Part shown: positions 1 through 54,865 of the stretch, piece after piece | Layout: each line of letters begins with the position of its first letter | Position numbering within the stretch: position 1 is the stretch's first letter | DNA from: Sphaerolaimus hirsutus | Lineage: Eukaryota; Nematoda; Chromadorea; Monhysterida; Sphaerolaimidae | DNA: 64,000 nt | Assembly: GCA_964036195.1 (NCBI GenBank) | Contig: OZ038453.1 | Coordinates: forward strand, 4,169,469 to 4,233,468 | Direction: 5' to 3' | Notes under the pieces: generated by a model | Seen by the model: only the letters and a program-made list of their open reading frames with translations | Databases searched by the model: none | Told to the model about the DNA's origin: nothing | Translations under genes and position numbers: made by a program

Positions 1-296
1 ACAATTTTGTGCAGAGCACTACAACCACTAGAAAACATGGCGAACTCGGTCAGCCCATGTAGCGGCGTCGATCGTGCGATGCAGTGCTCTGACGGGGTAC
101 TGCGCAGCCCACTGCAGGGCTGTGCATGCCATGCAGTCCCCGTTGCCGTCGAAAAGCCGTCGCAATGTCTGAGAAAGTTTGCCCAAATTTAGTTCACAAC
201 ATACATAGTAGTTTACGTTCCGTGAATTATTGTTGCATTTGTTTGTCTAAAATTTTGTGGGGTGGTGTTTTTCCCATCGTAAAAACGCTCTTACAA
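1..296 (-). repeat. 3' LTR of the gypsy element (partial, cut by window start)
   Basis: Bases 1-296 repeat 16123-16418 almost exactly. Similarity stops after the shared ...CGCTCTTACA, which is the TGTAAGAGCG start of the LTR on the minus strand. Only the first 296 bp of this LTR lie in the window. Confidence 0.9.
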
Positions 297-889
297 CCCA
301 CCAGCCATTGCGGTTTACCTCCTGGCTAAACTATTGAGGTGTGACCGGTGATTATTTTTACGATCGCATGCACAAAATTTTTCGTTAAATATAAAAGTTG
401 TTCATCTTTTCGAAATTTTCAAAAGTGGTTATTTGCATGCAAAATGGCTTGCGTGTATTTCACAGTCGAAAATCAGATTCCGAAACGTGGCTGGCAGTTA
501 CAAAAATGCAATAATAAGCTGAGAACGGTATGGGAGTTAATCAACTGCCCTGCCTTTTGCAGTCGGGACTTTATAGCGGAATTGCCGATTGGGTTCTGGA
601 GGTATTTCCATTTTCAAAATTATTTTACTCTTTTCAAATTTACAAAAACTTTGTTTTTTATTCAGAAAAGTGCCAATTTTGGACGGTCAACTGGGGGCGG
701 CGGTTACGTTCGTCAACTCGGGGGGACAAAACTCGGCCATTCGGTGCCGCAGCGAACGTCTTGGAAACTATTTGGTGTGTGATTTCGAGATACTTAGTTA
801 ATTGTTTTGTTTGTTTCACTGTTGGTTATAGTTTCCATTACGTTATCAGTTTCCAAAAAACTTTCAAAACAAAAATGTCCTGGGTTTAC
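297..889 (-). other. Non-coding stretch between helicase ORF and 3' LTR
   Basis: About 590 bp follow the helicase stop before the LTR. No convincing ORF on the minus strand and no strong polypurine tract is seen; the bases next to the LTR are only loosely purine-rich (GGCTGGTGGGT on the minus strand). The stretch probably serves as 3' untranslated sequence. Confidence 0.5.
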
Positions 890-3800
890 TCAAACTCCCT
901 CGTCAGTGCCCTCCATCGGCACGTCTTCTTCGGTAGCAACCTCGGGCTGCATGTCGTCCTCTTTAGCCGGCGCTGGCGCAGCGACCGCCACGGGTTCGTC
1001 GGGCTCGATGTCGCCGTTGGGGGCTAGCAGCGCCTCCTCTTCCGGTGCGGAGAATGTGGCGTCGTCGCCATCGCCATCGGAGGTGCTGGCGATGTCCTCG
1101 ACCTCGTCCGTGGGGTCGTACGGCAGCGGCTCGTCCGCCGGCTGGGGCGCGTTTTGTACGTCCACGGGCTCGTCCATATTGACGTCCGGCTGGGCGAGCT
1201 CAGTCTGGGCGGCTTCGTCGTCATCGTCGTACTGGTGCTCGGGGCAGTGGGCCTGTGGCCTCCAGTCGGGCGACCAGGTCCATATCCTGGGTCCCCAGAT
1301 TTTCTCTGCGTGATACTGGTAAAGACCAGCCGAAGCGAATTCATACGAAAAGAAAATGTGGAAAAAGTCAGACCACAACAAGGTCTCCACGTTGGCCACT
1401 ACGACTCTGGCGCAACGCGAGCGGGAGGTGGCCACGTTTCCACGTTCCAGCTGGGCCACGAAGCCGACTCGAGTGGTCTGCTGAGAATACTGGGTGGTCA
1501 ACCTGTCGCGCGCGGGCAGCTCGCTGCTGCGCACGCACGACACGATGGTCACCTCAGCTTCTCTAGCTTGCGCTTTGTCGGCGGTGAGCACTCGAGTCGC
1601 CCAGAATTCTCGCCCGTAGTGCTTCAACGAAGGGTCGGTTGCCAATTTGTCGATCAGCGCGCGCTGCTGCGCCGCATAAAAAGTGACCACCAAAATGGCA
1701 TCCGCCCGACTCAGGTCACTCCAGGGCACGCCGCCCTGGTTCGCCAATTCCACAAAATGTTTAACCAACTGCACTACGATGAGCTGTTCGGGTACGTTGA
1801 CGGTCGACGTGCCCTCCTTGGTTTCCAGCCCGGTGTGGTTGATGACCGTGGACAGCGGAATCGGGACGTGGTCGCCCGGCATGCGCGGCAAGTTGTCATC
1901 CCTGCACGGCGATTTCTGATGATAGGGGCGGAGCCGGCCTTCGTACGCCGCGTGCAAATTGGCATTGATCAGCTGGGGGTGCCCGCGGAAAACCGTTTCC
2001 AGCCGCAGCAGGGGGCACATTTTGGACGCTGTGAGTCCATCAATCAAAGATGGAGAGGGATTAAGGAAGGGTTCAACCCATCGCTGGGTCTGAACTTTGC
2101 GGGTAAGTTGCTTGCTGTCTCCGAACAGCAAGACTAAGCCGTTGTGGGGGAGCGACACGGGGTTCAACGCTGTGACCATGGAAATGTTCGTGGCGAGCGA
2201 CGCCTCGTCCACTATCATGGCACAGTACCTGATGTGCTTGATGCGCACATCATGTGTCGAATCGACAGTCACGTGGATCTGTCCTGGCTGCAACAAATCC
2301 AGAACGTACTTGTGCAGCTTGACGGTGCCCTTGGCGTACCTCCGGGCGGCCCGGCGCAGCACGCGGCCCCAGTCTGTGTCCTCGAGGTCCGGGTCGTTCA
2401 CATCGACGCCCGTGCGACCCGCTACGACCTCGTCGTTGTCGTCGTCCCATTCTTCATCGTCGTCTTCGCCAGTGACGACTAGGTGCGGCACCTTCTCCAT
2501 TAGCGCCTTCATCACCTGCTGGGGGGTTTGGTTGGGACCTGCGACGATGGAGTGCACGGTCTCGTACTCAGTTTTCACCGCCCAGTACTGGTCTACCAGC
2601 TCTATCCACTGGGCGTCGATCCGCGCGACCGAGAAAGGGGTGTCCTGCGCTATTTTGTGCAGCGCGGGCAGGTCGTCTACAGCGAGGTCGCTGTAGACCT
2701 CCTGGGTTTCCAACAGGGGGCTCAGCACCCTTACAGCGAACGCCGCTCTCAATTTCAAATATTCGACGTACCCGGGCTCTTGCAGCATGTCCTTAACTTG
2801 TGCGGCGGGCAGTTCGGACCACTGCTTGCGGCCCAGCAGCAGGCGGCGCACGGCATCGTGCACGCCGTCGCAGCCGGTGCGCTGCATGTTTTGCACAGCG
2901 CGCCTAGCGCTCTCGTCCGTCGCCGAGTTGACGGTGCACGTGACGATGGTGGAGTGGTATTTGGCGTTGGAAGTGATGTCGGAGGAAAGGGTGGAATTAC
3001 TGTCTGGGAATGGGCGACCATTAAACTGGTTGAAGTACAACGAGCACATGTACGCCACCTGGTTCTGCACAGTGGTCTTGCCAGTGCCGAACGGGGAGTC
3101 GCACATGAGCAACAGCGGCCACGCCAGCTTCAAGGCGGCTAAAACGGCCGCCAGGGTTTTCGCCTGGCCGCCCAGCGGCTTGAACTCGCCGGGCTTACTC
3201 ATCAGCAGCGCTTCGGACGTGCCCTGACGGATTTCGTCTTCTAGGGGCGCGGCCGTGGCGCGGATGTGCGACCACTGGGTGAACGTGTCGGACAACCGAT
3301 CATCATACACAATGGCAATGGCGATCTGGTCACCCAGTTTTAGGACATTGCCCGAGCGTATGTTGGACGGTCTCCAACCTTCGTTCAGGCGCTCGATAGC
3401 GCCTTGCAAAGAACGCATGGTTCGCACATAGTTGGGCGACTCATTGGTGGTGCGCACCATGTAGTCGCCGTTCTCGAGCTCGGACGGGAGCGCCGCCTGG
3501 CTCAACTTCAAGTCCAAATTGCCCACAATTACAGCCCGCTCCGGACTTACCTCTAAGGTGGCCACTCGCAGTTGCAACTTTGGCTGCGTCGGGTCGGGCC
3601 TGTCGTCGTCGGGCATCGCCCTGGTCAACGTCAGCACCGACATCGGTCCGGCGCCGACCAGCAGCTGGGGTAGAGCGTTGATTTGCGCATTCGCGCGTCT
3701 CTGCTGCTCGTCCATCTGCTCTTGCTCGTCGTTGACGGCGTCGGCCAGGTCCGGCCTGTTGATCGTGATGCACGCCTTGGTGCCTGCGTCGGTCGCTTCC

Positions 3801-4894
3801 CACTCAATTAGCGCGCGCACCGCCGTGGCGCGTGCCGCTCGGAAACGCAACAAAGACTCGTGGTACATGTATGCTGCGGCCAGCATCACGTACTTGGTGC
3901 GCAGGTGCGGCGGGTGCACCCGGTTTAATTCCACCTCGTGGGGGTCGTGGAAGTAAAAATCTTCCAGCGCCGATTTTTCGAGCAAGAAAACGCCATACGC
4001 ATGTGCGTAATAGACGTTGTCAAACACGTCGTTGTTCAGGTCGTGAAACTCGACGTGTGCAATCCCCAACATACCTGCACTCGGGATCGGGTTGCCGGGC
4101 ATGGTGTATTCGCGGTGCGCAAACGCCAAGCGCTCCGGGCCGCAATCGTTGCGCTCGCCCGCGCCCAACTCCGGCAGCTCCTTGTAGCGACGGGGCGTGA
4201 ACGCCACTCGCAGCCGCAGCGAACGCCAGTTCGTTGAGTAGCGCTGGTAGCCGACCTCGTCGCGCTGCGCGTCGTACTCATGGTCGGCCGGGGCGCGTCC
4301 CTGTACGGTTACGACGACGGGCACTGCCACCAATAGGGGGCTAGCGCTTTTGTTCATGTCCAATTTGATGTCAAATAACTCCCAGTAGTCGGGTTTAGCA
4401 GTGCAACGCTGCACATACCTGGCCGTGAACTTCATACCGTGTCTGACGAGCGGCAAGTGCAGCTCCGGGCCGTACTTCTCGTTGATGTTGGCGTACTGAG
4501 CCACCACGACCGACGTGCGGCGGTCGCGGGCGCCGCGCGCGATGTTGGTCGAGTAAGTGAAGAACGGGTACACGTTGTCGGCGCCGTTCCATTCGTCGTT
4601 CTCGGCCAGCTCGGCCAGCGTGTCGTCGTGAAGTCGCACGTGGGCTTGGTAGTATTCCCGGTCTGCAGTGTCGTGTCTCCAATAGACACGGTCCACCCAG
4701 CCGGCGAACATCCGCTTCGCGTAGACGGGCGGCGGGGGCCGCTGGTTCTCACCCCACTGGTGATCCACCTTGGGGGGCGGTATGGTGGCGCCCGGTTCGC
4801 CACGTTGGGTGGTGGCTTTCGTGAAGCCCGAGCCCGCGGCGCTGGCCCGCCGGCCATTGTGCTGCCGTTTGGCGCCCATGCTCCTTCCGGCCAT
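890..4894 (-). CDS. Upf1-like superfamily 1 helicase encoded by the gypsy element
   Basis: A 1334-residue ORF occupies the position where env usually sits. Walker A is at about residue 600 (GTGKTT preceded by DSPF). Motif II (VDEAS) is near 895 and motif III (GDSKQL) near 923, followed by an FRGHP motif. Motif V is near 1107 (QAREAE followed by VSCVRSS) and motif VI near 1150 (ERGNVATSRSR). This set and spacing match the Upf1-like SF1B RNA/DNA helicases rather than Pif1/Helitron helicases. The first ~580 residues match no family I recognise. The last ~140 residues are highly acidic. The ORF starts 262 bp after the pol stop, so it is probably translated from a spliced or subgenomic RNA. All core motifs look intact, unlike RT in the same element. 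A role in protecting element RNA from nonsense-mediated decay or in RNP remodelling is inference only. Confidence 0.88.
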   Translation of the reverse strand: MAGRSMGAKRQHNGRRASAAGSGFTKATTQRGEPGATIPPPKVDHQWGENQRPPPPVYAKRMFAGWVDRVYWRHDTADREYYQAHVRLHDDTLAELAENDEWNGADNVYPFFTYSTNIARGARDRRTSVVVAQYANINEKYGPELHLPLVRHGMKFTARYVQRCTAKPDYWELFDIKLDMNKSASPLLVAVPVVVTVQGRAPADHEYDAQRDEVGYQRYSTNWRSLRLRVAFTPRRYKELPELGAGERNDCGPERLAFAHREYTMPGNPIPSAGMLGIAHVEFHDLNNDVFDNVYYAHAYGVFLLEKSALEDFYFHDPHEVELNRVHPPHLRTKYVMLAAAYMYHESLLRFRAARATAVRALIEWEATDAGTKACITINRPDLADAVNDEQEQMDEQQRRANAQINALPQLLVGAGPMSVLTLTRAMPDDDRPDPTQPKLQLRVATLEVSPERAVIVGNLDLKLSQAALPSELENGDYMVRTTNESPNYVRTMRSLQGAIERLNEGWRPSNIRSGNVLKLGDQIAIAIVYDDRLSDTFTQWSHIRATAAPLEDEIRQGTSEALLMSKPGEFKPLGGQAKTLAAVLAALKLAWPLLLMCDSPFGTGKTTVQNQVAYMCSLYFNQFNGRPFPDSNSTLSSDITSNAKYHSTIVTCTVNSATDESARRAVQNMQRTGCDGVHDAVRRLLLGRKQWSELPAAQVKDMLQEPGYVEYLKLRAAFAVRVLSPLLETQEVYSDLAVDDLPALHKIAQDTPFSVARIDAQWIELVDQYWAVKTEYETVHSIVAGPNQTPQQVMKALMEKVPHLVVTGEDDDEEWDDDNDEVVAGRTGVDVNDPDLEDTDWGRVLRRAARRYAKGTVKLHKYVLDLLQPGQIHVTVDSTHDVRIKHIRYCAMIVDEASLATNISMVTALNPVSLPHNGLVLLFGDSKQLTRKVQTQRWVEPFLNPSPSLIDGLTASKMCPLLRLETVFRGHPQLINANLHAAYEGRLRPYHQKSPCRDDNLPRMPGDHVPIPLSTVINHTGLETKEGTSTVNVPEQLIVVQLVKHFVELANQGGVPWSDLSRADAILVVTFYAAQQRALIDKLATDPSLKHYGREFWATRVLTADKAQAREAEVTIVSCVRSSELPARDRLTTQYSQQTTRVGFVAQLERGNVATSRSRCARVVVANVETLLWSDFFHIFFSYEFASAGLYQYHAEKIWGPRIWTWSPDWRPQAHCPEHQYDDDDEAAQTELAQPDVNMDEPVDVQNAPQPADEPLPYDPTDEVEDIASTSDGDGDDATFSAPEEEALLAPNGDIEPDEPVAVAAPAPAKEDDMQPEVATEEDVPMEGTDEGV

Positions 4895-5156
4895 ATTACG
4901 TTTTTAAGTTTTAAGGAAGAGTGCAATTAATCACAATCAATCACCGGCACTGCAGTGGACTCTCGGAGCCCACTAGTGTACCAGCGAATTTACAACCGCA
5001 CTCACACGCACACGAACACGCAGTCACACGCACTTGGGATCACAAGTTTGTCAAACTTACGTGATGAGGGAATTATTCAAATTACGGGAACACAATTAAT
5101 TAATTTGTTCAGTGGCTACGTCGATAGCCACTTAAGGGCTTTACCGCAATGAGAGT
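4895..5156 (-). other. Spacer between pol and helicase ORFs
   Basis: A 262-bp non-coding gap of mixed composition. It must hold any signal for separate expression of the helicase, such as a splice acceptor or internal start, but I see no clear one. Confidence 0.4.
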
Positions 5157-7940
5157 CTAAGTAGGGCCGAGATTCTGCGTGCAGGTGGGGATAATGTTTT
5201 CGAGCGTTGGTTTACAGCGATCCGCATGCACTACATAAATCTTATCATTAGTATCATTATAAATAGTTACAAGCGGATGAGCATAGCGAATGCATTCGTA
5301 GGGGCCTAAAAAGAAAGCAGCAAATTTTTTACAAGGGCCGGTCTGATCGGTCAAGCGCGGAGTGAAAATACGAACCGCTTGGCCCGGCTTCAAATTCAAA
5401 TGGCGGGCGCGGCGATTGGCGTAGTATTGCTCTTTCAATTGAGCATTCCTAAGCGCGGTATGCGCCGCATTGCGCGCCGCCGAGAGATGCTGCGCGAGCT
5501 CGGTAGGTTCACCGTGCTTATCTGTCGACTCGGGTAGCATTGCGCCAGACGCGGGGGGCGTCAACATTCTTTCCCAGAGCGACGCGGCTGGGCGCCCAAA
5601 CAAAAGTGCGTATGGCGTGGTGCCCATGGCCGGGTGTTTCGAGGTATTATACGCGTGCACCGCAGCGCCTAAGTGGTAATCCCAATCGGAATGAGTTTGG
5701 TTCACGTAATGGGACACGATTTCCATCAGAACACCGTTTCGGCGCTCCACCATTCCGTTGCCTTTTGGCATATACGCAAATGAGCGATGCTGAAGGGTAT
5801 TGAAATACAATAACAATCTTTTAAATGCCCCTTCAACGAAGCTTGGCGCGTTATCGCTCAAAATGGCGCCGGGTACGCTAAATATGGGAAGAATGTGTAG
5901 TAAGAATGCAAATGCTACAGTATCCTGCCGGATATCGGGTACCGGAACAGCGATACCAAATCGCGTGCACTGGTCAACGAAAACCAACACGTGTTTATGC
6001 CCGCGCCGCGTGCGTGGCAGCGGGCCAACGGCGTCGACTGCGATGACATCGCCGGGAGATCGCGCGATTTTCCGGCACGCCATCAAAGTCTGCATCGACT
6101 GCCTGAGTCCTTTTCGCGCACAACACAAAGGGCACGTGGCGACCCAATGCGCGCTTTCGGGGCGCATATTTGGGAACCACGCGAATTCCTGTAATCTTTC
6201 GAAAGTTTTCATTATTCCCAAATGTCCCGCTGTAGGGTGATTGTGTGCTAGTTCGAATACTAGCGGGCACAGTGAGGCTGGAATACACACAGGATCATAC
6301 AACTTGATCCCCGGTACTATTGAAGCCTCAGCCCTTTTTCGCATGATTCCATATTGATCAATGAAAAACGGTGGCACACACTGTCCAGGTGCATCCTTAC
6401 AAACTTCCATCAAATTCACTATATACGCTTCTTGCATTTGCAAGCGTTTCAATTCAATTATGGGGACAAACGGGGGCAAAACGTGATCAGTGTGAAAACC
6501 GTTGACGCGCACTTCGGTAGCCGTGGGGCCACCAGCCATTGTTTGTGGACCTACGGTAGTAAGCCCGGTAATTGGCTCCACCCCATTGTTCGCCGGCTGT
6601 CGCGTGTCCATTGTCCCAGGGTTGTGGTCACGCGCCGCAGACTCCGCCCTCGCACGCGCGCGTGTCCTCATTGGTTCCTTGATGGGCGCGCGTCTGGAAA
6701 CAGTAGCTACCGTATCCCACGGGTCGATTGCGGTCTGCGTCGCGACAGTTTTATTGTGTGATATTTTAATGAGTGCAAATTGCTCAAATGCTTCGTCAAG
6801 TTCTAATTTCTCGTCGAAAGTTATTGGCGCATCGCGCCTTCGGGACAGAGCATCTGCGAGCTCATTGCATTTTCCTTTCAAATGCTTAAATGTAATTTGA
6901 TACGGGGCAATGGCCAATGCGAACTTATGCAATGCGGCGTGTGGTGTAGCCTCCAAATTGGGGTTCTTCACCCAAGGGATACTTTTGGCATCAGTCCACA
7001 CTTCAAAGGGGCGCCCCGCCAAGTAGCAATGCCAATTTCGGACGCTCTCAAAAATTGCGTAAGCCTCTAGAGTGATGGCGGGCCATCTGCTCTGAACCTC
7101 AGTCAACTTCCGGCTGTAGAACGCGCACGCATGCAGTCCAGATTTTTCGTCGGCTCGCTGCACCAGCACTCCAGCGACCGCAATTTGTGACGCGTCTGTA
7201 ATTACGATGAACGTTTTATTTGGGTTCGGGTATTGCAAACAGGGGCTGTGTAATAATATTTCTTTTAATTGGAAGAAGGCTCTCAGAGCCTCAGGATTGT
7301 CGTTGAGATCTACCGGCGCATTTCCATCGTAGTTCTCGCGCGGACCGGTGCGCGTCAAATTCGATAGCGGCACTGCTATCTCGGCGCATCTGTGTATCAT
7401 GCGTCTGAAAAATCCCACTGCACCCAAAAACCCTTTGACTTCCTTGACAGTTTTTGGGAGGGGCCATTCTGAGATAATATTACGTTTGTCCATGGGAATG
7501 CAAATGCCCTCGCGGCCGATCATGAAGCCCAGAAATTTTACCGCGGTAATGCGTGCGAAGAAACATTTACGGGGACTAATTTTGAAGTTGTTTTTGATCA
7601 ATCGATCCAAAATTTGGCCAATGTCACTTAAATGGGTTTTCCAGTCCTGACTGTAAATTAGCAAGTTGTCAATGTACAATAGCACATTGCGATGAATCAG
7701 TCCCGCCATTGCAAGCTCAAAACACCTTTGTGCCAAACTCGGTGAGCATTTTAATCCCATAGGTAATCTCTTTAATTGGAATTGACCAAAAATATTACGG
7801 AACGAAGTGATGTGTCTGTCGTCGGGATGCAGTGCAATATTATAGAAAGCCTGGTTAATATCGGCGCTGCTAAAAAAACTTGCAGTTGCTGAGTGCATCC
7901 ACGGTGTCATCCAGCCTCGGCAATGGGAATTGCGGCGCAT
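5157..7940 (-). CDS. pol: Pol 3' part: RT (second half), RNase H, integrase
   Basis: The ORF continues RT from the fingers/palm onward. The active-site box reads YIDN at residues 89-92 (usual YxDD). RNase H shows TDAS near 246, a catalytic Glu in LEAYAI, TDAK, and ADALSRR near 361. Integrase has an H-H-C-C zinc module at about 565-610, the D-D-E core (AVDAVGP near 632, LSDNAPSF near 695, MVERRN near 729) and a GPY motif near 877. The first ~20 residues overlap the upstream ORF and are probably not real pol sequence. The true reading enters this frame from the 7870-14376 ORF at a T7 run (about 7872-7878). RNase H and integrase residues look intact. The second catalytic Asp of RT is Asn (AAC, one G-to-A change from GAC). 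Confidence 0.9.
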   Translation of the reverse strand: MRRNSHCRGWMTPWMHSATASFFSSADINQAFYNIALHPDDRHITSFRNIFGQFQLKRLPMGLKCSPSLAQRCFELAMAGLIHRNVLLYIDNLLIYSQDWKTHLSDIGQILDRLIKNNFKISPRKCFFARITAVKFLGFMIGREGICIPMDKRNIISEWPLPKTVKEVKGFLGAVGFFRRMIHRCAEIAVPLSNLTRTGPRENYDGNAPVDLNDNPEALRAFFQLKEILLHSPCLQYPNPNKTFIVITDASQIAVAGVLVQRADEKSGLHACAFYSRKLTEVQSRWPAITLEAYAIFESVRNWHCYLAGRPFEVWTDAKSIPWVKNPNLEATPHAALHKFALAIAPYQITFKHLKGKCNELADALSRRRDAPITFDEKLELDEAFEQFALIKISHNKTVATQTAIDPWDTVATVSRRAPIKEPMRTRARARAESAARDHNPGTMDTRQPANNGVEPITGLTTVGPQTMAGGPTATEVRVNGFHTDHVLPPFVPIIELKRLQMQEAYIVNLMEVCKDAPGQCVPPFFIDQYGIMRKRAEASIVPGIKLYDPVCIPASLCPLVFELAHNHPTAGHLGIMKTFERLQEFAWFPNMRPESAHWVATCPLCCARKGLRQSMQTLMACRKIARSPGDVIAVDAVGPLPRTRRGHKHVLVFVDQCTRFGIAVPVPDIRQDTVAFAFLLHILPIFSVPGAILSDNAPSFVEGAFKRLLLYFNTLQHRSFAYMPKGNGMVERRNGVLMEIVSHYVNQTHSDWDYHLGAAVHAYNTSKHPAMGTTPYALLFGRPAASLWERMLTPPASGAMLPESTDKHGEPTELAQHLSAARNAAHTALRNAQLKEQYYANRRARHLNLKPGQAVRIFTPRLTDQTGPCKKFAAFFLGPYECIRYAHPLVTIYNDTNDKIYVVHADRCKPTLENIIPTCTQNLGPT

Positions 7941-10900
7941 GCAAAACCAAATTTAATCGCCTGTAATCAATGACCATGCGTTTAGAACCATCAGGTTTAG
8001 AAACGACTAGTGTGGGAGCGCAGTATGGGCTTGTACTTGTTTCAATTATGTCGTGTTCAATTAGACAGCGCAGGTGCTTTTCTAAGTATTGTTGGTCATC
8101 CAGGCTCAACCGATACATGCGGCACGCAATCGGTTTTCGATCGGTTAATTGTAGCCGATAATCAACCAATTCGCTGTACCCTATGTCGTACTTGTGTCTC
8201 GCAAAGGCGCCTTTGTGCTTCAAAAGTACGGCTGCAAGTTCCTTGCGCTCATTTTCCGACAATGTTTGGGGCACAGAAAATTCCATTTTGTGTCCATCTG
8301 GACATTTCACATGCAATGGCTCACCTAATTGGTCTTCAATTACCTTTTCTGGAACGCTTGAAGAAACCGGCTCTGTCGCTTCATTGGCGCGGCACTGCCG
8401 TATCCATTCCTCAGGGGGGTCGCTGGCTTTGACTTTCAAAACACAGTCGACGGGCTCAACCAAACCGATTTTTTGTTCCATCTGCAAGGTAACCGGTTGA
8501 TCACGCACGTTTGCAACCCTCATTAGAAACACTTCGTCACTTGTTTCATATGCTGCAGATGCGGCAACTACCCCATCCTTCAGGTTTACGGATTCCAGCC
8601 CAGTGACAGTAAATGTGTGATAGCTAACTGGAGCTGATAGGCGCACCGGCACCATTGCTTCATGCCTTGCCTTGATTTCGGTAGCCGCTGTGACTAATGC
8701 AAATACTGCACGAATCTGCACGTCCGGCTTGTGGTTATCAAATGGAATGCTGACGCCTACTGAGGGGATTTTTAAGAGGCGCGCGGGCATATCAATTATC
8801 ATGTGCCGCAGCACATCCGCGCCCAAAATTAAATTGTCAACCAGGCCATCGATGGCTTGAAAAACGATACGAAATGTGTGTCCCCCAATGTCAATGGGCA
8901 TTTCCAACTGACCAATTATCATTAGTTTGGAATCCGCTGCGCATCGCATGTGGGAAATGGGAGAAGTTTCTTCAACGGCGTCGTGTCCATGCCGATGCTC
9001 CTGGAACACATCTCTGCTGCACAGCGAGCGCATGGCGCCAGTGTCCAGCAAGCATCTGTGGTACATGATGCCGTCCATGCACACGGGCACCGCAGGACTG
9101 TAATAGACATGCACAGGCCCGTTCCGCCTCGCGACGACAGACTTTATATTTTCCTGTTCATCTTTTGATAGCGTAATCATTCTAATTCTATCCACTGGTG
9201 GGCTCATGGAAATTTCCGCCATTTCTAATTGGTGATTATATTCAATTGATGGGAACATCTGTACCGTTACCGTGTCATCTGATGCGTACTCGGACGCACC
9301 TGTTGTCGGATTCAACACGGTCAGTCGGCCGTCATAACTTTTCATAAAGCTACGCTTACCTGTGTCTCTGTGTCGGGTAATTAGCGGCCTTGACTTCTGT
9401 TGCAGTCGTCGGCGCGCACGTTCAATTAGCGTCGTAGCTGCCGGGGGCGCGGCGGCTAACAAAGCTGCTAATAAATACTGGCAGGTCACTATGGCGCACA
9501 CCAGGTAAATCCATATCTGCAGCCATGACCTCAAGGCGTCAAAATCCCAAAATCCCACGCTTACCATTGACCTGGCCATTAATCGATGCGATTGTAAACT
9601 GCCATCAACTGCATGCGTCGGCATTCCATGCACGCGTCGCACAATCGCGTATGAGTGCCACACGGTGTTCAGCGTGGTGGTCGGCAGCAGCTCAGACAAA
9701 TTGTACATTGTCGTTGCGGCAAAGATCTGGTGGTGTACGTCCGTCGGTCGTTCGAGCTGCCACCTGTGAGGGAAACTGTGGGTGTTGTAAACGGGGATAT
9801 GTTCCAGGGCGCCTTTCTCAGGTAAGTACTTATACCACTGCCCATGCAATTTCAACACACGGTTGTGGCGATTCGTGCACGTTCCCATAACCGGCTGGAA
9901 CAGAAGGGCATTTGTAATTGTATCCAAATGCAAGGTCACGTTCTGTCCATGTAATTTCATTCGTATTGGGACCGTGGCGTGGCACGCGCCTTTACCTGTT
10001 TCGGTGCCCAACTGATAAGTCTTTACCGCAAAGCACTTATGCACTAGAAATCCGTCTGGCGCCGCCTTGGCCAATATCTCATTGTCGCGCATGTACCAGC
10101 GCGCTGTGGTCGTCGGGTGCTCGGTCATAGCTAAGCGGAGAAGTTCCTGAAAATGTTGCACATGCCTACAAGTAGACACGGCCTGTGCACGCATTGTTTG
10201 CTCAGATGTCTCGTACACCGCTTGCATCGCTGCGGCCAAGTGACCGGTGTCCACTACGCCAAACCCGGGGCGTGCTGCGCAACGCTTTTCCCGCACATAC
10301 CTAATTGGGGGGATTTCGAACGGTGCTACAACAATATCCTGGTCTGATTTCCATAATTTTTTACCACATGAAATGATTTCTTCTTTTACTCGAAATGACA
10401 ATGCCAAAGTGTGATCACGCGCGAGCCAAATATCTTGTCTAATTAGCCCAGCTATTTCTTGCCATTTCTCATAGGGGCATTCAGCCTTTGGATTTGGTTT
10501 CCAGACTAATTGGCTACCGTCGGGCAGGGTACAGGTGCCCTCCTCGTAATTACACTTTGACACCTCTCCTAGCGTACTTTGCATGACCTTGGCGCCGTAG
10601 CGCATGCGTACATCTCCCTTAAACAACCCACACTGCGGGGTCTTGGTAATTAACCAGCTGCAACAGTACAGCCCGTGCCCCGAATAACTTACGTTTGTCG
10701 GGTATTGAGTGTCCCATGCATTGCTCAGCTCGTCCACTGGCTGAAGCGCGCCGTCGTTGCACTTATGGTACTTCATCATGCTCTCACACTCCGAGGGATC
10801 TACCGCACGCGGCTGCGAGTCAAAATGTTCCAAAGTGACGTCACCCCAAAAGTTCTGGTATGTATGAGCAGACCGCGTGGCCGCTACACATCGATATGCG

Positions 10901-13900
10901 GTGGCACGATACTCTACCATATTGCGTTTGTAAATGGTGAGTTTCAGGGGAACCGGCTTAGTCAAAGACACAGCTGAATCGACTAACGCGGTGCAGTTAG
11001 GCAAGTCGGGGTAGGTGTACAAGTCGTAGTGATCGGTCAGGTCGCTGCACAGCAGTGGCGTGTCCGGCATCGTCGAGGCCGCCGCCAAAGGAATCAAGCT
11101 CAGGCACGCCATCACCGCGGCGATGGTGAACACTGTAAACAAGGCGCCAAAGACTTGATTATTATACGGTGGTTCAGAATAAGCTCGCTGGCGAGGTACT
11201 GCGGACGTTTTGTCTCTAAATTCGGCCATTTTGTCAACGCATGTGCTCGAGAATGTACGCGGGGACAAAATCACAGGGGGCTCATTTAGGAATGGGTCCA
11301 ATGGGGCGTCACGCAAAACCCTCCACTCGATTCTAGTAAGCGTATCATTGTGGTCGTCATGCGGGCGACAGTCTGGGAGCACCACACAATCTTCATCCTT
11401 CAGATCATGCATTGCAGTGTGCCGCAGGTAATCTAACCAACTGGTACGAAATAGAATTGACGAGGCTTCGCGTTGATACGCCCAGTGGCTAATCCACTGT
11501 TCTCGATCTACCATGAGCGCGTGCATTTTGCACTGAAGGCTAGCTACAGGTTGCTCCTCCATCTCCTCCTCTTCAGGAGCTTCCGGTTCCAGCCCTTGCA
11601 ATGACAATATTTGATCATGATGGAAGAGAATTCTAGCGTAAGACGGCGATGACTCGGTCACGGCCTTGTAAGTGCATTCACCCACCTGTGTCACTGTCGT
11701 CGGGTTCAGCAGTGGCACGCTGCTGCTCTGGCCTTGCTGCGATTCCAACGGCCGTTGCGCCGGTTGTGGCTGCGGGTGCCATCCTATGGCCGCGGGCTGC
11801 TGGCTCTGGACATACACAGGCTGCATCATCTGCGAGGAAGGCACGGTCATAGGTTGACTTAATTGCATCGGTACCCATCCTCCTGGATACCCAAAGTTTT
11901 GTGGATATTGTCCTCCCTGTCCACGGCCTCGCCCTCGGCCGCCACCTCTACCGCGCGCACGGAAGTCGCCTCCGCGGCCACGCTGATTGCTATCGTTGCC
12001 AGCAGATGGCTCGGGAGGGGGCTTATTTGGACATTGGTAGCGGAAGTGATCAGGAGATCCACATTCCCAACATCCATTTTCAAACCTTTTGGGCGGTAAC
12101 TCACGCCTCGGGTGCGGCGCACCCATCATCTTAGCTTCCTGGGCGTCGAGTTTTTTCTGCCGTTCGTCGAGCGCCCGCTCCTTGGCCTTGAGCTTCGCAT
12201 TCTCGGCACTCTCGGCCTCCATCGACTGGACCGAGGGGTGCAGGTTCATGGCCATGATGCGCTCCATGACCTGATTCGACGTCTCGGCGACGATCTCGCC
12301 GGCCGACTTCGCATGTTCCTTCTGAACGGTTTCAAGATTTTTGTAACTTTCTTGCATGCGCGCATTATCAACTAATTCCTTCCAACTTATATTGGCGTGC
12401 ACTGCCAGGTTGCGCCTAATGTCCTTATCCAACCCCTGGTGAAACTTAGTGATGCACATGCCTTCCCTTTGGGCGGAGTGCAGCATTGGGTACGCGCGTT
12501 TTAAAGCACGTTCCAACCTAGTTGCCCAATCCAGCACAGATTCAGTGGGACTTTGAGTTGATTCGATAAACTCGCGCTGTGCATGATGCTGAGCGTTTGG
12601 ATTTGCAAACAATTCTTCCAAACGATCCATCATGGCTTTGTAATCAAGTGCGCGCAGTTCCCGCCTTCTAGCTACGAAAATAGAATTGGCATTCTTTTGT
12701 AAAAAGATAGGCAGCAACTTTTGCCTAGAACGCATTGAAACACCTAGCGCATCACACAAAATGTCCCACTTATGTCTCCAGTCCTTGAAACTCTTGTCAG
12801 CCCTTCCGGTGAATGCATCGCACTGCGTAGCCAGGGCGGTCAGCGTAGCAGCCGTGCCGTGCGGCACCTGGTGCTGCGCCAGGTAGTCTGGATCCGTAGG
12901 ATTAGGTGCGGGTGAAATCGATCCTGACGATCCTGGGGAGGAGGGGCCCGGCTGTCCCGCCAAATTGATTACGCTGGTAGCTGGTTGCGCCGTGGCGTTT
13001 GCAGGCGCAGGTGCCGCTCCACTGCCGCCCGCTGATCCGCTTACACTCGCCGGCGGGGGTACAGTCTGCGCGGTTGTGTTCCCAGGGGCCGTTCCCGCGC
13101 CTAAAGTAGCATTAGCTGCCAATGCTATAGGTGCAATTAATCCCCTATTAGAACAAAACGCCAAAAATTGAGTGGTGGCCTGCTCCAGCGCGCTAGGGTT
13201 ACCTACGCTGGTGTACATACTCAGGCCTAGTCTTATGGCCTGTAGCTTATTTTTATCTGCTGTGGAAGCATTGACTGAAATCGCCGCTGGTCCCGCGCGA
13301 CTAAGTTCCCCAGACCACTGGTGCAATAGTTGTATCATGCCCGGGAAGGTCCAACCTTCTCTAGTGTACCCAGTGGTTTCCCTGCCCGGGTCCGCCGCGG
13401 TCGCCGCCGTCAGGATCTGGCCCGGCGTCACTTGGTTGGCCGCCGCCAGGGTAGTCGTCACCGTTGTGAGCGTGGCCGGCGCGGTCGTCACACTCGAACC
13501 TGGGGGCGGAGTGCTAGTCATTCTACTTTGATTTATGGGAGACGGTCCTACGATTCTACGCCGTGCTCTATTCGAAGAGACACAGCTTTCAATCGAGCCT
13601 TGCGCAGATGCAAGCTCACGTGGTGTGGAAGAACTTCGCGGGGCACTTAATTGAAGCTCCCCCAATGAATTTTCCGCCTCTTCGAGCTCTTCGGCTAACG
13701 AGGGAAATTCAATATTTATATCTGGGATCGCTACTGGGGTGTCAATTAGATTTACGGAAGTCTCACCACTTCTACGCTGGTATGCAGACGAACTCACGGG
13801 CTCGTCTTCACCAGCGTACCCTGCTGAATCAGCCTGTGACCCAGACCCTGTCGACACCGGGGAGCTACGGCCGCTTTTTCCCCACGGTCGTCGAAATAAA

Positions 13901-14376
13901 CCCCACTTACTTGATTTCCGCTGCTCTCGCCCGGGCTCAGCACTTACTGGCCTGTCGGGTCGCAGGAGCGGACTATCTGGTGGGCGTTCTGTTTCTGTGC
14001 CTCCACTGGACGCTCGTCGAGCCGCCCCAGTCGGTAGCGCACCTGGCGCGCAAGCCGGCGTATCCCAACGGCTGCCGCCTGTTCCTGCACGTGCAATTCC
14101 AAATTGCAGCACTGGCTGGACGACGGGAGTGCTATCCTCTGTGCGTCTGGTCCAAGTCGCTGCTTCCTGTGCGCGCTCGGCTTCCGCTTCCGCTTCCTGC
14201 GCACCTGCTTCAGCTCTTACCTGTTCAACCTCAGCGTCCTGCGCGTCCGCAGTCTGCTGTGCCCTGCGCAAAGCCGCTTCTCGGCGCGTGCGCTTCTGTA
14301 GCTGTTCTGCAGCTCTCCACACTTCCTCAACTGACCCTGGGATCGACGCTGGCCCTCCTGACCGCAGCGTTTCCAC
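7870..14376 (-). CDS. gag-pol: Gag - envelope-like glycoprotein - protease - RT (first half) polyprotein
   Basis: One uninterrupted 2168-codon ORF. Residues ~27-75 are Ala/Glu/Arg-rich, coiled-coil-like. Residues ~515-690 are a retrotransposon Gag capsid domain. A CCHC zinc knuckle (CWECGSPDHFRYQC) lies at 767-782, followed by an RG-rich stretch to ~830. A hydrophobic signal/anchor segment begins near 1074. A Cys-rich ectodomain with N-glycosylation sites runs to ~1615, a second membrane segment spans ~1617-1645, and a basic stretch follows. The aspartic protease motif DTGA is near 1777 and RT starts near 2055. Gag-env-PR-RT order is not the usual gag-pol-env. Topologically it works: two membrane passes would leave Gag and Pol cytosolic and the glycoprotein lumenal. 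Alternatively the env part could be removed or used by splicing. The ORF ends inside RT at an in-frame TAG after a T7 run. Confidence 0.85.
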   Translation of the reverse strand: METLRSGGPASIPGSVEEVWRAAEQLQKRTRREAALRRAQQTADAQDAEVEQVRAEAGAQEAEAEAERAQEAATWTRRTEDSTPVVQPVLQFGIARAGTGGSRWDTPACAPGALPTGAARRASSGGTETERPPDSPLLRPDRPVSAEPGREQRKSSKWGLFRRPWGKSGRSSPVSTGSGSQADSAGYAGEDEPVSSSAYQRRSGETSVNLIDTPVAIPDINIEFPSLAEELEEAENSLGELQLSAPRSSSTPRELASAQGSIESCVSSNRARRRIVGPSPINQSRMTSTPPPGSSVTTAPATLTTVTTTLAAANQVTPGQILTAATAADPGRETTGYTREGWTFPGMIQLLHQWSGELSRAGPAAISVNASTADKNKLQAIRLGLSMYTSVGNPSALEQATTQFLAFCSNRGLIAPIALAANATLGAGTAPGNTTAQTVPPPASVSGSAGGSGAAPAPANATAQPATSVINLAGQPGPSSPGSSGSISPAPNPTDPDYLAQHQVPHGTAATLTALATQCDAFTGRADKSFKDWRHKWDILCDALGVSMRSRQKLLPIFLQKNANSIFVARRRELRALDYKAMMDRLEELFANPNAQHHAQREFIESTQSPTESVLDWATRLERALKRAYPMLHSAQREGMCITKFHQGLDKDIRRNLAVHANISWKELVDNARMQESYKNLETVQKEHAKSAGEIVAETSNQVMERIMAMNLHPSVQSMEAESAENAKLKAKERALDERQKKLDAQEAKMMGAPHPRRELPPKRFENGCWECGSPDHFRYQCPNKPPPEPSAGNDSNQRGRGGDFRARGRGGGRGRGRGQGGQYPQNFGYPGGWVPMQLSQPMTVPSSQMMQPVYVQSQQPAAIGWHPQPQPAQRPLESQQGQSSSVPLLNPTTVTQVGECTYKAVTESSPSYARILFHHDQILSLQGLEPEAPEEEEMEEQPVASLQCKMHALMVDREQWISHWAYQREASSILFRTSWLDYLRHTAMHDLKDEDCVVLPDCRPHDDHNDTLTRIEWRVLRDAPLDPFLNEPPVILSPRTFSSTCVDKMAEFRDKTSAVPRQRAYSEPPYNNQVFGALFTVFTIAAVMACLSLIPLAAASTMPDTPLLCSDLTDHYDLYTYPDLPNCTALVDSAVSLTKPVPLKLTIYKRNMVEYRATAYRCVAATRSAHTYQNFWGDVTLEHFDSQPRAVDPSECESMMKYHKCNDGALQPVDELSNAWDTQYPTNVSYSGHGLYCCSWLITKTPQCGLFKGDVRMRYGAKVMQSTLGEVSKCNYEEGTCTLPDGSQLVWKPNPKAECPYEKWQEIAGLIRQDIWLARDHTLALSFRVKEEIISCGKKLWKSDQDIVVAPFEIPPIRYVREKRCAARPGFGVVDTGHLAAAMQAVYETSEQTMRAQAVSTCRHVQHFQELLRLAMTEHPTTTARWYMRDNEILAKAAPDGFLVHKCFAVKTYQLGTETGKGACHATVPIRMKLHGQNVTLHLDTITNALLFQPVMGTCTNRHNRVLKLHGQWYKYLPEKGALEHIPVYNTHSFPHRWQLERPTDVHHQIFAATTMYNLSELLPTTTLNTVWHSYAIVRRVHGMPTHAVDGSLQSHRLMARSMVSVGFWDFDALRSWLQIWIYLVCAIVTCQYLLAALLAAAPPAATTLIERARRRLQQKSRPLITRHRDTGKRSFMKSYDGRLTVLNPTTGASEYASDDTVTVQMFPSIEYNHQLEMAEISMSPPVDRIRMITLSKDEQENIKSVVARRNGPVHVYYSPAVPVCMDGIMYHRCLLDTGAMRSLCSRDVFQEHRHGHDAVEETSPISHMRCAADSKLMIIGQLEMPIDIGGHTFRIVFQAIDGLVDNLILGADVLRHMIIDMPARLLKIPSVGVSIPFDNHKPDVQIRAVFALVTAATEIKARHEAMVPVRLSAPVSYHTFTVTGLESVNLKDGVVAASAAYETSDEVFLMRVANVRDQPVTLQMEQKIGLVEPVDCVLKVKASDPPEEWIRQCRANEATEPVSSSVPEKVIEDQLGEPLHVKCPDGHKMEFSVPQTLSENERKELAAVLLKHKGAFARHKYDIGYSELVDYRLQLTDRKPIACRMYRLSLDDQQYLEKHLRCLIEHDIIETSTSPYCAPTLVVSKPDGSKRMVIDYRRLNLVLHAPQFPLPRLDDTVDALSNCKFF

Positions 14377-14464
14377 CCGGCGCGACAGATCGTTTGTTAC
14401 TTATCACTTAACGGCTTGGCGTTGATCAGGCGCCGCACCGTTCACTGAAGTGAATTAAGCAAAC

Positions 14465-14482
14465 CACTCGCGTCTGCTACCA
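14465..14482 (-). promoter_or_regulatory. Candidate primer-binding site (tRNA-iMet-like)
   Basis: The plus strand reads TCTGCTACCA at 14473-14482, identical to the 3' terminus of eukaryotic initiator Met tRNA. Matching weakens further upstream. It lies about 90 bp before the Gag start, as expected for a PBS, with three bases between it and a TG that could be the LTR end. Confidence 0.55.
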
Positions 14483-14485
14483 AGT

Positions 14486-16418
14486 TGTCATGAATCCGTG
14501 TATTCAGCTGTTTTTCAACTACACGATTCACGAGGTTTCTTTTACCGCACTTTTCCCTCTATTCCCACCTCACCGGCCGCTTGCCGCTGCAGTGCACTGC
14601 ACTGGGCCCGGAGGTCCAGGTTATAAATGCGTGTTGTAAATTTTAAGGAAACGTGTCCGAAGACGGTAGGTTTTTCAGAACGTGCGATGAACCACTCGGT
14701 GGCTCACGCTGTTCCGTTTCCCGCAGCACGCACGGCACTCACACTCAGCATAAGCAGCGCGGTAATTAGAGCAGTTGTTAATTAGCTAACTAAGGGAAAT
14801 CAGTTAGTACTTAGTGCCAATACAAAAGGGGGGCCAAGTTGGGTTGAGAAGAGAGTTTATTTTTTAGGGTGATGGAAGAACAGTAGCGGCAGAGTAGAAG
14901 CAAATCAGCTTACGTCGCATCGACGAAGTTGCGGGAAAAAACAATTTCAGCTACTTATAAGGCAATCAAGACTACCATAATCGACTTGAATAAAAAGCTA
15001 AAAAAGACATAAAATTGCGAGGTTACAAAATCACTTTCAAATCACATAAGCTCTGATGTAAGCACTTAGTAAAATCGTACGTAACACAGCTGCTTATGAA
15101 AAGAGTACAACTTAATATTAGCTAATAAAAGTAATTAAAAGCTTCATGCAACATGGGGCTTAACCTATAATTTACAAGTTCACTTGATACGACAATTACT
15201 CACTTCCATAATTACCTACAAATTCCTACTTAATATAAGACAACTTAAAACAGAGAACAGTGCAGTGCAACGCATATTTACTAAAACGGAATGAACAAAG
15301 TATGTACAAAGGCAATTACGGCATCATGATCCAACACAGCAATTTAAGCTAATCAATAATTAGGCAGCCAACACAAGCTTACAACTAATGTTAATTAATT
15401 AAGATACAGAACGATTAATTAGGCACGTGGGAATGAAAGGCACTGGCGTAACACGCTATGTACAACAGTTTCTACATGTCACATGGAAACTTTGTTTGGG
15501 GGTTTTGTATTCATAAGTTACGGTAGCTAGAAAATGCTCGCAGGCGCGAAATGCTTATCACCTCCTACCCCGCGACCCACTATTGTGACTATCCGGTCAG
15601 CTAGCGCCCGTGAGAAAGGTTTCAGCCCGATGGCCACACCCTTCCGAGCGCGAGGAGATATTTATGCTAGGGCGGCGGAAAAGTATTTTTTGGACTGCGA
15701 CTTGTCACTTGGGGCGTTGTCGGAAGCTGTTCCTACCACCCACCGATACTAGATGACGCACGACAATCTAGTCAACATGGGGAGGAACGCAGAACAGTGC
15801 TTTTGTATTTTTTTTGAGTGAAATTCATTGTTCCTGGCTTCCGGTCGCCACCTACCTATCAGCCGTCAGTCTCCGCCTCTGCCCAAAGATAAGTAAAGGG
15901 TAGAATGTGCTTTAGACCGCCCAGAGAGTCACAACAGTGTGCCGGCGAGCCCAAAGGCGGCCACACGCCGCGCCGCGGCATTTCAAAGTGAAAAATGTGA
16001 AATTCCCCTCTCACCTTATGCCATGTGGAATGCAGTTACACCTAAGTTAGACATAACCTAGCTAAATTGACTTAAATAGATTTGGCGCACGAAAACAGTA
16101 ATTAAAATTGGGGGGTAAGGAAACAATTTTGTGCAGAGCACTACAACCACTAGAAAACATGGCGAACTCGGTCAGCCCATGTAGCGGCGTCGATCTTGCG
16201 ATGCAGTGCTCTGACGGGGTACTGCGCAGCCCACTGCAGGGCTGTGCATGCCATGCAGTCCCCGTTGCCGTCGAAAAGCCGTCGCAATGTCTGAGAAAGT
16301 TTGCCCAAATTTAGTTCACAACATACATAGTAGTTTACGTTCCGTGAATTATTGTTGCATTTGTTTGTCTAAAATTTTGTGGGGTGGTGTTTTTCCCATC
16401 GTAAAAACGCTCTTACAT
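14486..16418 (-). repeat. 5' LTR of the gypsy element (left limit inferred)
   Basis: The right end (16418) is fixed by the repeat with 1-296. The left end is inferred from the candidate PBS and a plus-strand TGTCA at 14486, which pairs roughly with the TGTAA start. Only 16123-16418 can be verified against the other LTR. The rest of the stretch holds no credible gene. Confidence 0.6.
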
Positions 16419-18060: not shown

Positions 18061-18246
18061 GTGCCAATCCCAGACCCTGTAAAATGTCCTGTAAAATGTC
18101 AAGCATAGGTGTGAAAAATCATGTGAAATGCCCTGCAAAAAAGCAACCGAGTTGCCATTTTGCTGGGCATTTTACATGACTATTGACGCTTTGCATGACA
18201 TTTCACATTTTACACGACATTTCACAGGGTCCGGGACTGCCGCCCG
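18061..18246. repeat. Introner-like TIR element 1 (in SDR gene)
   Basis: Begins GTGCCAATCCCAGACCCTG directly after coding sequence and ends ACAGGGTCCGGGACTG, the inverted counterpart. The interior is made of CCTGTAAAATG / CATTTTACAGG repeats. It begins with GT like an intron but lacks an AG at the flush end. Confidence 0.7.
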
Positions 18247-18370
18247 GCCGCGCTGCTGTACTACGGGCTGCCCGCGCTGCTCGTGTTCGTCTGCGTGCGC
18301 GAGCTGCTCAGCAAAATCACCCTGCCCAACTTGGCCGGCCGGCCGGTCTTAATCACCCGCTGCGACTCGG

Positions 18371-19309
18371 GTGCCGGTCCCGGACCCTGTATATGACCCT
18401 GTAAAGTGTAAAAGACCCTGTTAAGTGTAAAAGACCCTGTAAAGTGTAAAAGACCCTGTAAAGTGTAAAAGATCTTGTAAAGTGTAAATGACAGTGTAAA
18501 GTGTAATAGAGCCTGTAAAGTGTAAATGACACTGTATAGTGTAAGAGACCCTGAAAAGTGTAATATACCCTGCAAAGTGTAAATGACTTTGTAAAGTGTA
18601 AGAGACCCTGTAAAGGGTAAATGACAGTTTAAACTGTAAAAGAACCTGTAAAGTGTTAAATGTGTTGTAAAACGCCCTGTAAAGTGTAAGAGACCCTGAA
18701 AAGTGTAATAGACACTGTAAAGGGTAAATGACCCTGTAAAGTGTAAGCGACCCTGAAAAGTGTAATAGACCCTGTAAAGTGTAAATGACAGTGTAAAGTG
18801 TAAATATACCTGTAAAGTGTTAAACGTCGTGTAAAAGAACCTGTAAAGTGTTAAATGTCGTGTCCAAGACCCTGTAAAGTGTAAGAGACCCTGAAAAGTG
18901 TAATAGACTCTGTAAAGTGTAAATGACTGTGTAAAGCATAAAAGAACCTGTAAAGTGTTAAACAACTTGTAAAAGACCTTGTAAAGTAGCATGTTTATCA
19001 AAAAACATAAGAGTTGCATATGATACATGAAGATTTGGATACACATGACACTTTACATGACGTTTGACACTTTACGTGGTTTATTACATGAAACATGAGA
19101 TTTCAGTTTCTTTTACACTTTGCAGGGTCTTTGACAGTACAGGGCATTTTACATGACACATGACATTTTACAGGGTTTTTGACATTTTACAGGGCATTTT
19201 ACATGACACAAAATATTATTAGGGTCCTTGACACTTTACAGGGTCTTTGACATTTTACACGGTATTTTACAATTTACAGGGTCTTTTACAGAGTTTGGGA
19301 CTGCCCCTG
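18371..19309. repeat. Introner-like TIR element 2 (in SDR gene)
   Basis: Same family: starts GTGCCGGTCCCGGACCCTG and ends CAGAGTTTGGGACTGCCCC. The left ~600 bp are tandem ACCCTGTAAAGTGTAAAAG units (18385-18990). The right part carries the inverse (TTTACAGGGTC), making a fold-back. It bisects the SDR glycine motif. Confidence 0.75.
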
Positions 19310-19573: not shown

Positions 19574-19891
19574 TAAACAGGGTGCACGCCAGGTCCGCCA
19601 CCCAAATTCTGAGTCGGTGCCGGACGCCATATCTCCAGTTGTAGTGGGGGAATTTATTCGAAATTTTGAGGGCATATACTCGAAACCCACCCACTACTAT
19701 ATACGGGCTGGGGAAGGTCGGCGACCCACACTCAGGTGGGTCGCCGACCTTCCCCAGCCCGTATATAGTAGTGGGTGGGTTTCGAGTATCTGCCCTCAAA
19801 ATTTCGAATAAATCACCCCACTACAACTGGAGATATGGCGTCCGGCAACGACTCAGAATTTGGGTGGCGGACCTGGCGTGCACCCTGTTTA
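19574..19891. repeat. Near-perfect fold-back palindrome
   Basis: Two ~155-bp arms (starting TAAACAGGGTGCACGCC and ending in its inverse) meet near 19733 with only a few spacer bases. No coding capacity. 19384-19573 to its left shows no feature. Confidence 0.85.
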
Positions 19892-50143: not shown

Positions 50144-50146
50144 TGA

Positions 50147-52889: not shown

Positions 52890-52919
52890 TGTGGCTTTTC
52901 TCTGTTGGCTCTGTGCTGG

Positions 52920-53312
52920 TCAACCGACTGTCGACACAGACTTTCTGCCATTGTTTGCTGATTGCTGGCCATTCTGTTCACCATTTGCTCTGAATGCTGG
53001 AATTTGCCATCCAGCGTTTCCATTGCCATTGTCACCAAATTTCTCTGGGCACACTGCACTGTGGTGCCTATTGGACTTGCAATAGAAACAATTTCTCGTA
53101 AATTGACACTGAGCCATGTAATGCCCTTTCTGCAGGCATCTCAGGCATCGCTCTGCCTTTGACAAAATCATTCTCCTTTCTCTGGCAGTTTTGAACTTTG
53201 GACACTTATCATTGAAGTGTAATTGCTGTGTGTCATTGCAAAACACACACAGCCTCCCAGGATTCATGAATCCAACTTGCGGTGCACTCTGACCATTCTG
53301 GATCACAGACAT
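52920..53312 (-). pseudogene. gag: BEL nucleocapsid-type zinc-finger segment
   Basis: Contains Cys/His knuckles (CLRCLQKGHYMAQC and CFYCKSNRHHSAVC) typical of BEL/Pao Gag C-termini. It is in the same frame as the upstream Gag ORF, separated by a TAG at 53427, and ends at an in-frame TGA (52920) before the protease segment. Confidence 0.85.
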
Positions 53313-53426
53313 GCTCCCTGTGCTGGTCCTAGGGTTCTCTGGCCCTCTGAATCGATTCCCATTGCCTTGGAACCGATTATTGAATTGCTGTGCGCGTGGA
53401 TTATTCCCGAATCCCTGGCGCGGTTG

Positions 53427-54497: not shown

Positions 54498-54865
54498 TTT
54501 TGCTGATGAAGTTTTCTTTCACTGTTTCTCTTTATAGTGCGTCTCCTGTGACGCTTGTGACGCTTCCTTGTGCCTTCTTGTGCACTTCTCTGTGCACCAC
54601 GGATTTGTTGTGCCACGCACAATACCAATGCAGTCCTACAGGCCCCTGACGTGTTTTATCACGCGTTGACCTTTACTGCACTGGCACCAGGTGTGTTCCT
54701 AAAGCCCCTGACGTGATTGTTTACACGCGTTGACTTCAACACACCGGTCAAATCCACCTGGACAATAAACAATTTATTTGCCCAGCAGTGTGCGCCCAAA
54801 GAGGGTCCGTACACACTAGTGTGCGCCCGAAGTGGGTCCGTACACACTTTTCTGAGCGCTCTGGC

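Follow-up and report, generated by a model that had tools for sequence, protein, structure and literature searches.

A predicted UPF1-like helicase gene between the integrase and the 3' long terminal repeat of a Ty3/gypsy element from the nematode Sphaerolaimus hirsutus

The locus and its helicase gene

We analyzed a 64,000-nucleotide stretch of the Sphaerolaimus hirsutus genome (C4:4169469-4233468, hereafter the window), which holds most of an 18,054-bp Ty3/gypsy retroelement. The element lies on the minus strand at C4:4167832-4185885, with its 3' long terminal repeat (LTR) partly outside the window. Its coding regions follow the order gag, envelope, protease, reverse transcriptase (RT), RNase H, and integrase, after which come a separate helicase open reading frame (ORF) and the 3' LTR; the internal part measures ~14.2 kb. 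Judged from its sequence, this is a young, high-copy, envelope-bearing Ty3/gypsy element that encodes its own UPF1-like superfamily 1 (SF1) helicase, to which we ascribe a presumed function below. The genome searched comprises 762 contigs that add up to 348,482,957 bases. Two relatives, called here copy 2 and the sister copy, turned up when 23 stretches of 10 kb were sampled blind.

The original prediction had described a 1334-codon ORF with a full Upf1-like motif set downstream of integrase and inside the LTRs, and both its placement (Table 1) and the motif set are borne out. When this ORF was shuffled 300 times and read on one strand, no stop-free run exceeded 368 codons. Motifs I, Ia, Ib, II, III, IV, V, and VI are all present, in order, as eight strings (residues 600, SPFGTGKTT; 652; 874; 894, IVDEAS; 924, FGDSKQL; 964; 1107, KAQAREAE; and 1151, RGNVATSRSR), which we named by eye against an alignment with UPF1 chains. 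The Pfam family AAA_12 matches with an E-value of 5e-22 (78.9 bits against a cut-off of 27). Among solved structures, human UPF1 chains rank top (E 2.2e-4, or 1.2e-6 with a family profile), followed by 8ftm ("5'-3' RNA helicase-like protein", 1.5e-6 with the family profile), which we take to be a SEN1-type protein, and by yeast NAM7, SMUBP-2, and SEN1. In NCBIfam, the IGHMBP2 family reaches E 1.1e-9, far below its cut-off.

Using the helicase core as query, we found a single protein-database match among the 8000 candidates sharing most words with it, a plant helicase (E 2e-4) that is presumably SEN1-like. The core has no match among phages, and in PHROGs the helicase meets one weak family of unknown function. 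Viral-type (virga-like) helicases are not among the nearest relatives in Pfam and PDB, where the matches are of the AAA_12, UPF1, NAM7, and SEN1 types; the sequences of the insect TRAS elements themselves were not part of this comparison. Outside the core, the 570 residues that precede motif I match no Pfam family at E <=10, residues 30-545 match no PDB entry at that threshold, and the N-terminal part has no protein-database match at E <=10 among the 8000 candidates sharing most words with it. This N-terminal region without an assigned domain is kept in the sister family too. Nor was any known domain recognized in the C-terminal tail or in the insertion that separates motifs Ia and Ib.

Table 1 Features of the Ty3/gypsy element in window coordinates
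Feature	Position	Strand	Details
3' LTR, start	1..295	-	begins TGTAAGAG...; remaining ~1.64 kb lies before the window, C4:4167832-4169468
Non-coding tail, helicase stop to 3' LTR	296..889	-	594 nt
UPF1-like SF1 helicase ORF (predicted)	890..4894	-	1334 codons; core ~residues 575-1185; acidic C-terminal tail
Gap, integrase stop to helicase ATG	4895..5156	-	262 nt; 259 nt in copy 2; ~0.2 kb between open frames in the sister copy
Second pol ORF	5157..7940	-	RT C-terminal part 18-141, RNase H 216-344, integrase H2C2 553-610, rve core 628-720
Frame-change site	7869..7881	-	AAG TTT TTT TAG C; zero-frame stop, downstream RT in +1 frame; at residues K-F/Y-F, S before DINQAF
First ORF	7870..14376	-	gag, envelope-like glycoprotein, protease, RT N-terminal part
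Envelope-like region	9442..11160	-	lies in frame after gag and before protease; two hydrophobic segments, near residues 1073-1104 and 1618-1645
Primer-binding-site-like stretch	14464..14482	-	TGGTAGCAGACGCGAGTGG; 3 nt past the 5' LTR, judged by eye
5' LTR	14486..16417	-	1932 bp, TG...CA, from TGTAAGAG (16417) to CATGACA (14486)

Copies, selection, and origin of the helicase

We interrogated other copies of the element in order to learn how the helicase is distributed. A genome-wide helicase search gave 617 candidates, of which the best-scoring 35 were scored; since these are the best-scoring ones, damaged copies may sit among the rest. In 35 of 35 scored copies, helicase residues 1-1334 are matched at 98-100% with no stop, which excludes a helicase confined to the window locus. 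From the 35 we chose 12 that spread over contigs and include weaker scores, taking small stretches of each. In all 12, the full 480 nt of the junction from integrase through the gap into the helicase can be aligned (93-99% identity), and the stretch from the helicase end to the 3' LTR aligns over 915-923 of 925 nt, again in all 12 (96-99% identity). An assembly join at 4895-5156, which the original prediction had named as a possible source of error, is thereby excluded, and its claim that the element carries its own helicase is upheld by the presence of the gene between integrase and 3' LTR in the 12 further copies and in copy 2. No genome-wide search was made for copies with pol but without the helicase.

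Copy 2 (C4:3,006,698-3,024,727) was read throughout in three adjoining stretches. Its LTRs are identical over 1920 bp, it is flanked by the 4-bp duplication TTTC, and its helicase, in the same place, is 98.2-98.5% identical to that of the window. The sister copy (~C4:0.993-1.004 Mb) is more distant, with identities of 68-74% in pol, 51-53% in gag-env, and 44-46% in the helicase, whose motifs are kept. A frame break disrupts its helicase, and a BEL element seems to be inserted in its gag (C4:1.004 Mb). The sister copy scores 93.3 bits against AAA_12, compared with 78.9 for the window protein. In a genome search with AAA_12, 150 of 454 candidates were scored, and 148 of these 150 rows cover profile positions 4-194 (one 5-194) at 89.7-97.8 bits. 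We take these 148 rows, which were not checked one by one, as probable sister-type copies. For 147 of them the open frame was compared: it spans at least 1300 residues in 98 and 1325-1340 residues in 86, the others being shorter or longer.

Selection was estimated from the window copy and copy 2, one pair on which the result rests; for the more distant sister pair dS is saturated or undefined, and its ratios were not used. The ratio of nonsynonymous to synonymous substitution rates (dN/dS) is 0.108 for helicase residues 1-597 and 0.064 for residues 598-1334, next to 0.054 for pol, 0.054 for gag-env residues 426-2168, and 0.08 for gag residues 1-424. Among 89 helicase codons with a single change, 70 changes are synonymous, 19 nonsynonymous, and none makes a new stop; in 500 neutral simulations nonsynonymous changes averaged 57.8 and never fell below 45, and stops averaged 2.7. 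The sole helicase indel between the two copies is 9 nt long and in frame, and indels in the non-coding parts measure 1, 2, 3, 4, and 10 nt. The comparison of dN/dS across copies proposed with the original prediction thus points to purifying selection on the helicase in this pair.

The helicase differs from its neighbors in GC content at third codon positions (GC3), which is 0.78; pol has 0.53 and gag-env 0.54. The border is sharp, and values stay at 0.70-0.84 along the gene. GC3 is raised likewise in the sister copy (0.65 against 0.45). A bias shared by the sister must be old or maintained, and by itself it is no proof of a recent foreign gain. The other two candidates scored in the AAA_12 search differ from the rest and are host UPF1-like exons, recognized by eye from UPF1 chains, at C14:4125000-4125650 and C65:85900-86800; stops interrupt the match at the second place, a 90-kb unplaced contig that is perhaps a second haplotype, as an intron would. 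The element helicase shares motor domain family and motif order with these exons, but it is one piece whereas the host gene looks intron-split, and identity is 24-25% over 152-158 aligned residues. Identity this low rules out that the helicase was recently copied from host UPF1.

The split reverse transcriptase and a possible role for the helicase

The RT is divided between two frames (Table 1), and across the site no residue is lost from the usual K-(F/Y)-F-S...D motif. Using a search that left one position free, we found the stop-plus-frame-change site UUU_UAG_C in 15 of 15 copies; both frames were read in three of them (the window copy, copy 2, and the sister copy), and the string was found in all 12 further copies. 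The sister copy reads AAG TAT TTT TAG C, with one base changed. In the window copy and copy 2, dN/dS is low on either side of the site. A dead-copy mutation or a sequencing error is ruled out by the same site in all 15 copies. We read the split as a putative programmed +1 shift at UUU_UAG_C; slippage in transcription may be an alternative. No report of a frameshift within RT was found in a single search of the open-access literature. If true, such a frame change inside RT, an oddity independent of the helicase, would let one RNA supply both a full Pol and a shorter Gag-Env-protease protein.

Host UPF1 acts on long 3' untranslated regions (UTRs) and takes part in destroying faulty RNAs and those with long 3' UTRs. 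We tentatively favor, as possible rather than probable, that the lineage gained and keeps a UPF1-class helicase that works on the element's own RNA to escape surveillance. Sequence comparisons suggest that the helicase was gained before the lineage split into at least two families and has been kept under selection as a working gene. Since it has its own ATG 262 nt past the integrase stop, it might be expressed on its own, as a separate protein, from a shorter mRNA of the element. Ribosomes translating the first ORF would regularly stop at the UAG inside RT. The zero-frame stop at 7870 leaves ~7.6 kb to the 3' LTR, like a long 3' UTR, so that interference with UPF1-dependent decay would be expected, and the stop site is a likely trigger of such decay. 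The helicase would then act on the long element RNA and remove host proteins such as UPF1 or take their place, allowing the RNA to escape surveillance and be translated and packaged. It has the UPF1-type motor, and sequence profiles recognized in it no zinc-binding CH domain, by which UPF1 contacts UPF2. It is somewhat unlikely, in our view, that helicase and shift site form one strategy by which the lineage uses its own UPF1-class motor to master surveillance of its 18-kb RNA, in which the stop-codon +1 shift inside RT would be the sole way to pol.

Several points weigh against a role in surveillance. The AAA_11 match (E 5.4e-5) stays below the Pfam cut-off (23.5 bits against 27); of the two Pfam families invoked in the original prediction, only AAA_12 is clear. 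The absence of the CH domain of UPF1 proper (RENT1) is judged from sequence profiles, the sole means applied. The core is remote from host UPF1, and a single-sequence structure of it (predicted local distance difference test score, pLDDT, 34) was unusable. Stop-free outcomes made up 6.6% of the neutral simulations, and the absence of new stops alone is thus weak. No shift-stimulating RNA structure is evident after the site in three sequences (folding energies of -17.7, -16.0, and -14.7 kcal/mol, where shuffled sequences average -13.2, -13.2, and -14.2 with a standard deviation of ~3), and a very efficient shift, if it occurs, would weaken the argument from a long 3' UTR. Helicase function is inferred from sequence. 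UPF1-type motors also serve DNA, transcription, and antiviral roles, which makes RNA decay one option, and a replication or packaging motor fits the data equally.

Nidovirus helicases serve very long RNA genomes, and the element is itself unusually long. The helicase could accordingly be a replication factor that unwinds structured RNA or RNA-DNA hybrids during copying of 18 kb, or that drives assembly of ribonucleoprotein particles or capsids; its motor motifs are kept and selected, and it occurs together with pol in each copy examined. We nevertheless consider this unlikely, given that the helicase stands apart from pol in an ORF of its own and has diverged more than pol between the two families, and that no helicase is named for the very long gypsy elements Burro and Ogre (PMC6431247; published sources are represented here and below by excerpts, to which our statements apply).

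A suppressor of small-RNA silencing, unwinding double-stranded element RNA or displacing Argonaute complexes, has been proposed for the viral-type SF1 helicases of insect long interspersed nuclear elements (LINEs), with weak suppression in a plant system (PMC5563155, PMC6338049). Conservation below that of pol would fit such a conflict with the host, but those LINE helicases are virga-like whereas the element helicase matches AAA_12 and UPF1, and we regard this role as improbable. A role like that of SEN1/senataxin in the nucleus, in integration or in transcription, where the helicase would resolve R-loops or steer termination on the long transcript, seems to us quite improbable: the sole protein-database match, presumably SEN1-like, and the score of the SEN1-type 8ftm speak for it, and UPF1 scores equally well. 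That a host gene was caught by chance and is carried as a passenger, as the GC3 of a gene of other origin might suggest, is highly improbable and largely refuted by the purifying selection seen in one pair, by the 35 open copies, by the sister copy with its conserved motifs and raised GC3, and by the lack of a close relation to host UPF1.

Known systems and the rest of the window

SF1 helicases in retroelements, and speculation on a quality-control role for them, are already known. Viral-type SF1 helicases occur in insect LINEs (TRAS, Jockey) and fused to pieces of Ty1/Copia, and the TRAS arrangement was likened to Upf1, with RNA quality control or silencing suppression as speculated purposes (PMC5563155, PMC6338049). 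These cases share with the element a retroelement protein that holds an SF1 helicase with motifs I-VI kept. They differ in that their helicase is viral and fused into ORFs, whereas that of the element is UPF1-type and forms a separate ORF in a complete LTR element with integrase. The statement in the original prediction that no known family carries such a gene has to be narrowed to UPF1-type helicase ORFs in Ty3/gypsy, of which we found no report, since SF1 helicases of viral type are known in LINEs and Copia pieces. In the open-access literature, with subscription papers and Repbase/GyDB outside the search, no UPF1-type helicase ORF was found for Ty3/gypsy, nor do the excerpts of PMC5408684, PMC5563155, PMC6431247, PMC10084718, PMC6338049, PMC7264820, and PMC5009743 report one in a complete LTR element. 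Where a lineage of elements encodes and spreads a UPF1-class motor and keeps it by selection, the countering or recruitment of the UPF1 pathway by retroelements through their own enzyme becomes directly testable.

Burro of planarians carries an envelope in frame between gag and pol, described as the first such case (PMC6431247). Like Burro, the element combines a gypsy-type pol with in-frame gag, envelope, and protease, great length, extra coding capacity, and an envelope related to mononegavirus-type fusion proteins (PMC6431247). Unlike Burro, whose internal part reaches up to 25 kb, it has a 1.93-kb LTR, a shorter internal part, and the UPF1-type helicase ORF, and a Pfam scan of the element found none of the Burro accessory domains BIR, BCL2, ankyrin, or MATH. 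For an element of Dugesia tigrina, the excerpt describes a midasin-like AAA ATPase region and names no helicase (PMC6431247). Vesta and Juno of bdelloid rotifers are likewise LTR elements with an extra enzyme ORF (ORF3), but theirs encodes a GDSL esterase or a DEDDy exonuclease, and "helicase" occurs once in the excerpt, in a reference title (PMC5408684).

The element has the structural marks of Ty3/gypsy (Metaviridae), namely TG...CA LTRs, a target duplication, and a primer-binding-site-like stretch, as well as the order protease-RT-RNase H-integrase with a Ty3-type RT. The best solved structure for RT and RNase H is Ty3 Gag-Pol (E 5.1e-55). The protease is weak (residues 1773-1858, E 0.011, below the Pfam cut-off, with the motif LLDTGA at 1776), and the rve core falls just below its cut-off (32.0 bits against 32.6). 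In gag, Pfam gives a PNMA-like match at residues 524-628 and a CCHC match at 768-784, both below cut-offs. No ATG occurs among the first 285 codons of the gag ORF (window 13522-14376), yet the ORF is open there and kept so in copy 2; a spliced leader or a non-AUG start may provide the start. The two LTRs differ at 8 of 1932 positions, seven in the outer part and one in the window part. The target duplication of the window copy, AATA, lies outside the LTRs, and a 4-bp duplication is present in both copies tested. No clear polypurine tract was seen by eye in the tail. Two preliminary interpretations were wrong: the LTR is not a 295-bp repeat, as the direct repeat runs on to 1.93 kb, and a supposed tandem truncated copy after copy 2 was rejected. 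Most of the supposed leader is LTR sequence; likeness among this leader, the gap, and the tail did not rise above shuffles.

The envelope-like region matches Monjiviricetes_fusion (PF24664) at residues 1268-1545 (E 1.1e-6; 27.4 bits against a cut-off of 27). A protein-database search with the envelope-RT part gave 23 matches among 7998 candidates scored, and in the four of these that were scanned no envelope domain was found at E <=0.1 (Pfam). In viral contigs, scans with the helicase, with gag-env, and with pol confirmed no relative. Envelopes of Tas/BEL-type elements are gB-like. The window also holds a Pao/BEL element at 45815-54497 (DUF1759, Peptidase_A17, DUF5641) with a PF24664 envelope after integrase (4.8e-12). 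The two envelopes belong to the same family, with 26% identity (E 7.7e-7), whereas the Pao/BEL element has a pol of another superfamily, its envelope follows integrase, and tblastn gave no helicase match in it. One window thus joins two pol superfamilies with one envelope type.

No tRNA genes were found in the window. A degenerate 19-nt tandem repeat array spans window positions 18146-19290, and the palindrome arms at 19574-19729 and 19736-19891 are 97% complementary. A second palindrome occupies 54854-56118, where the sequence and its reverse complement match at 94%. One of the sampled genome stretches contains a match to an immunoglobulin-domain exon (1.1e-7).

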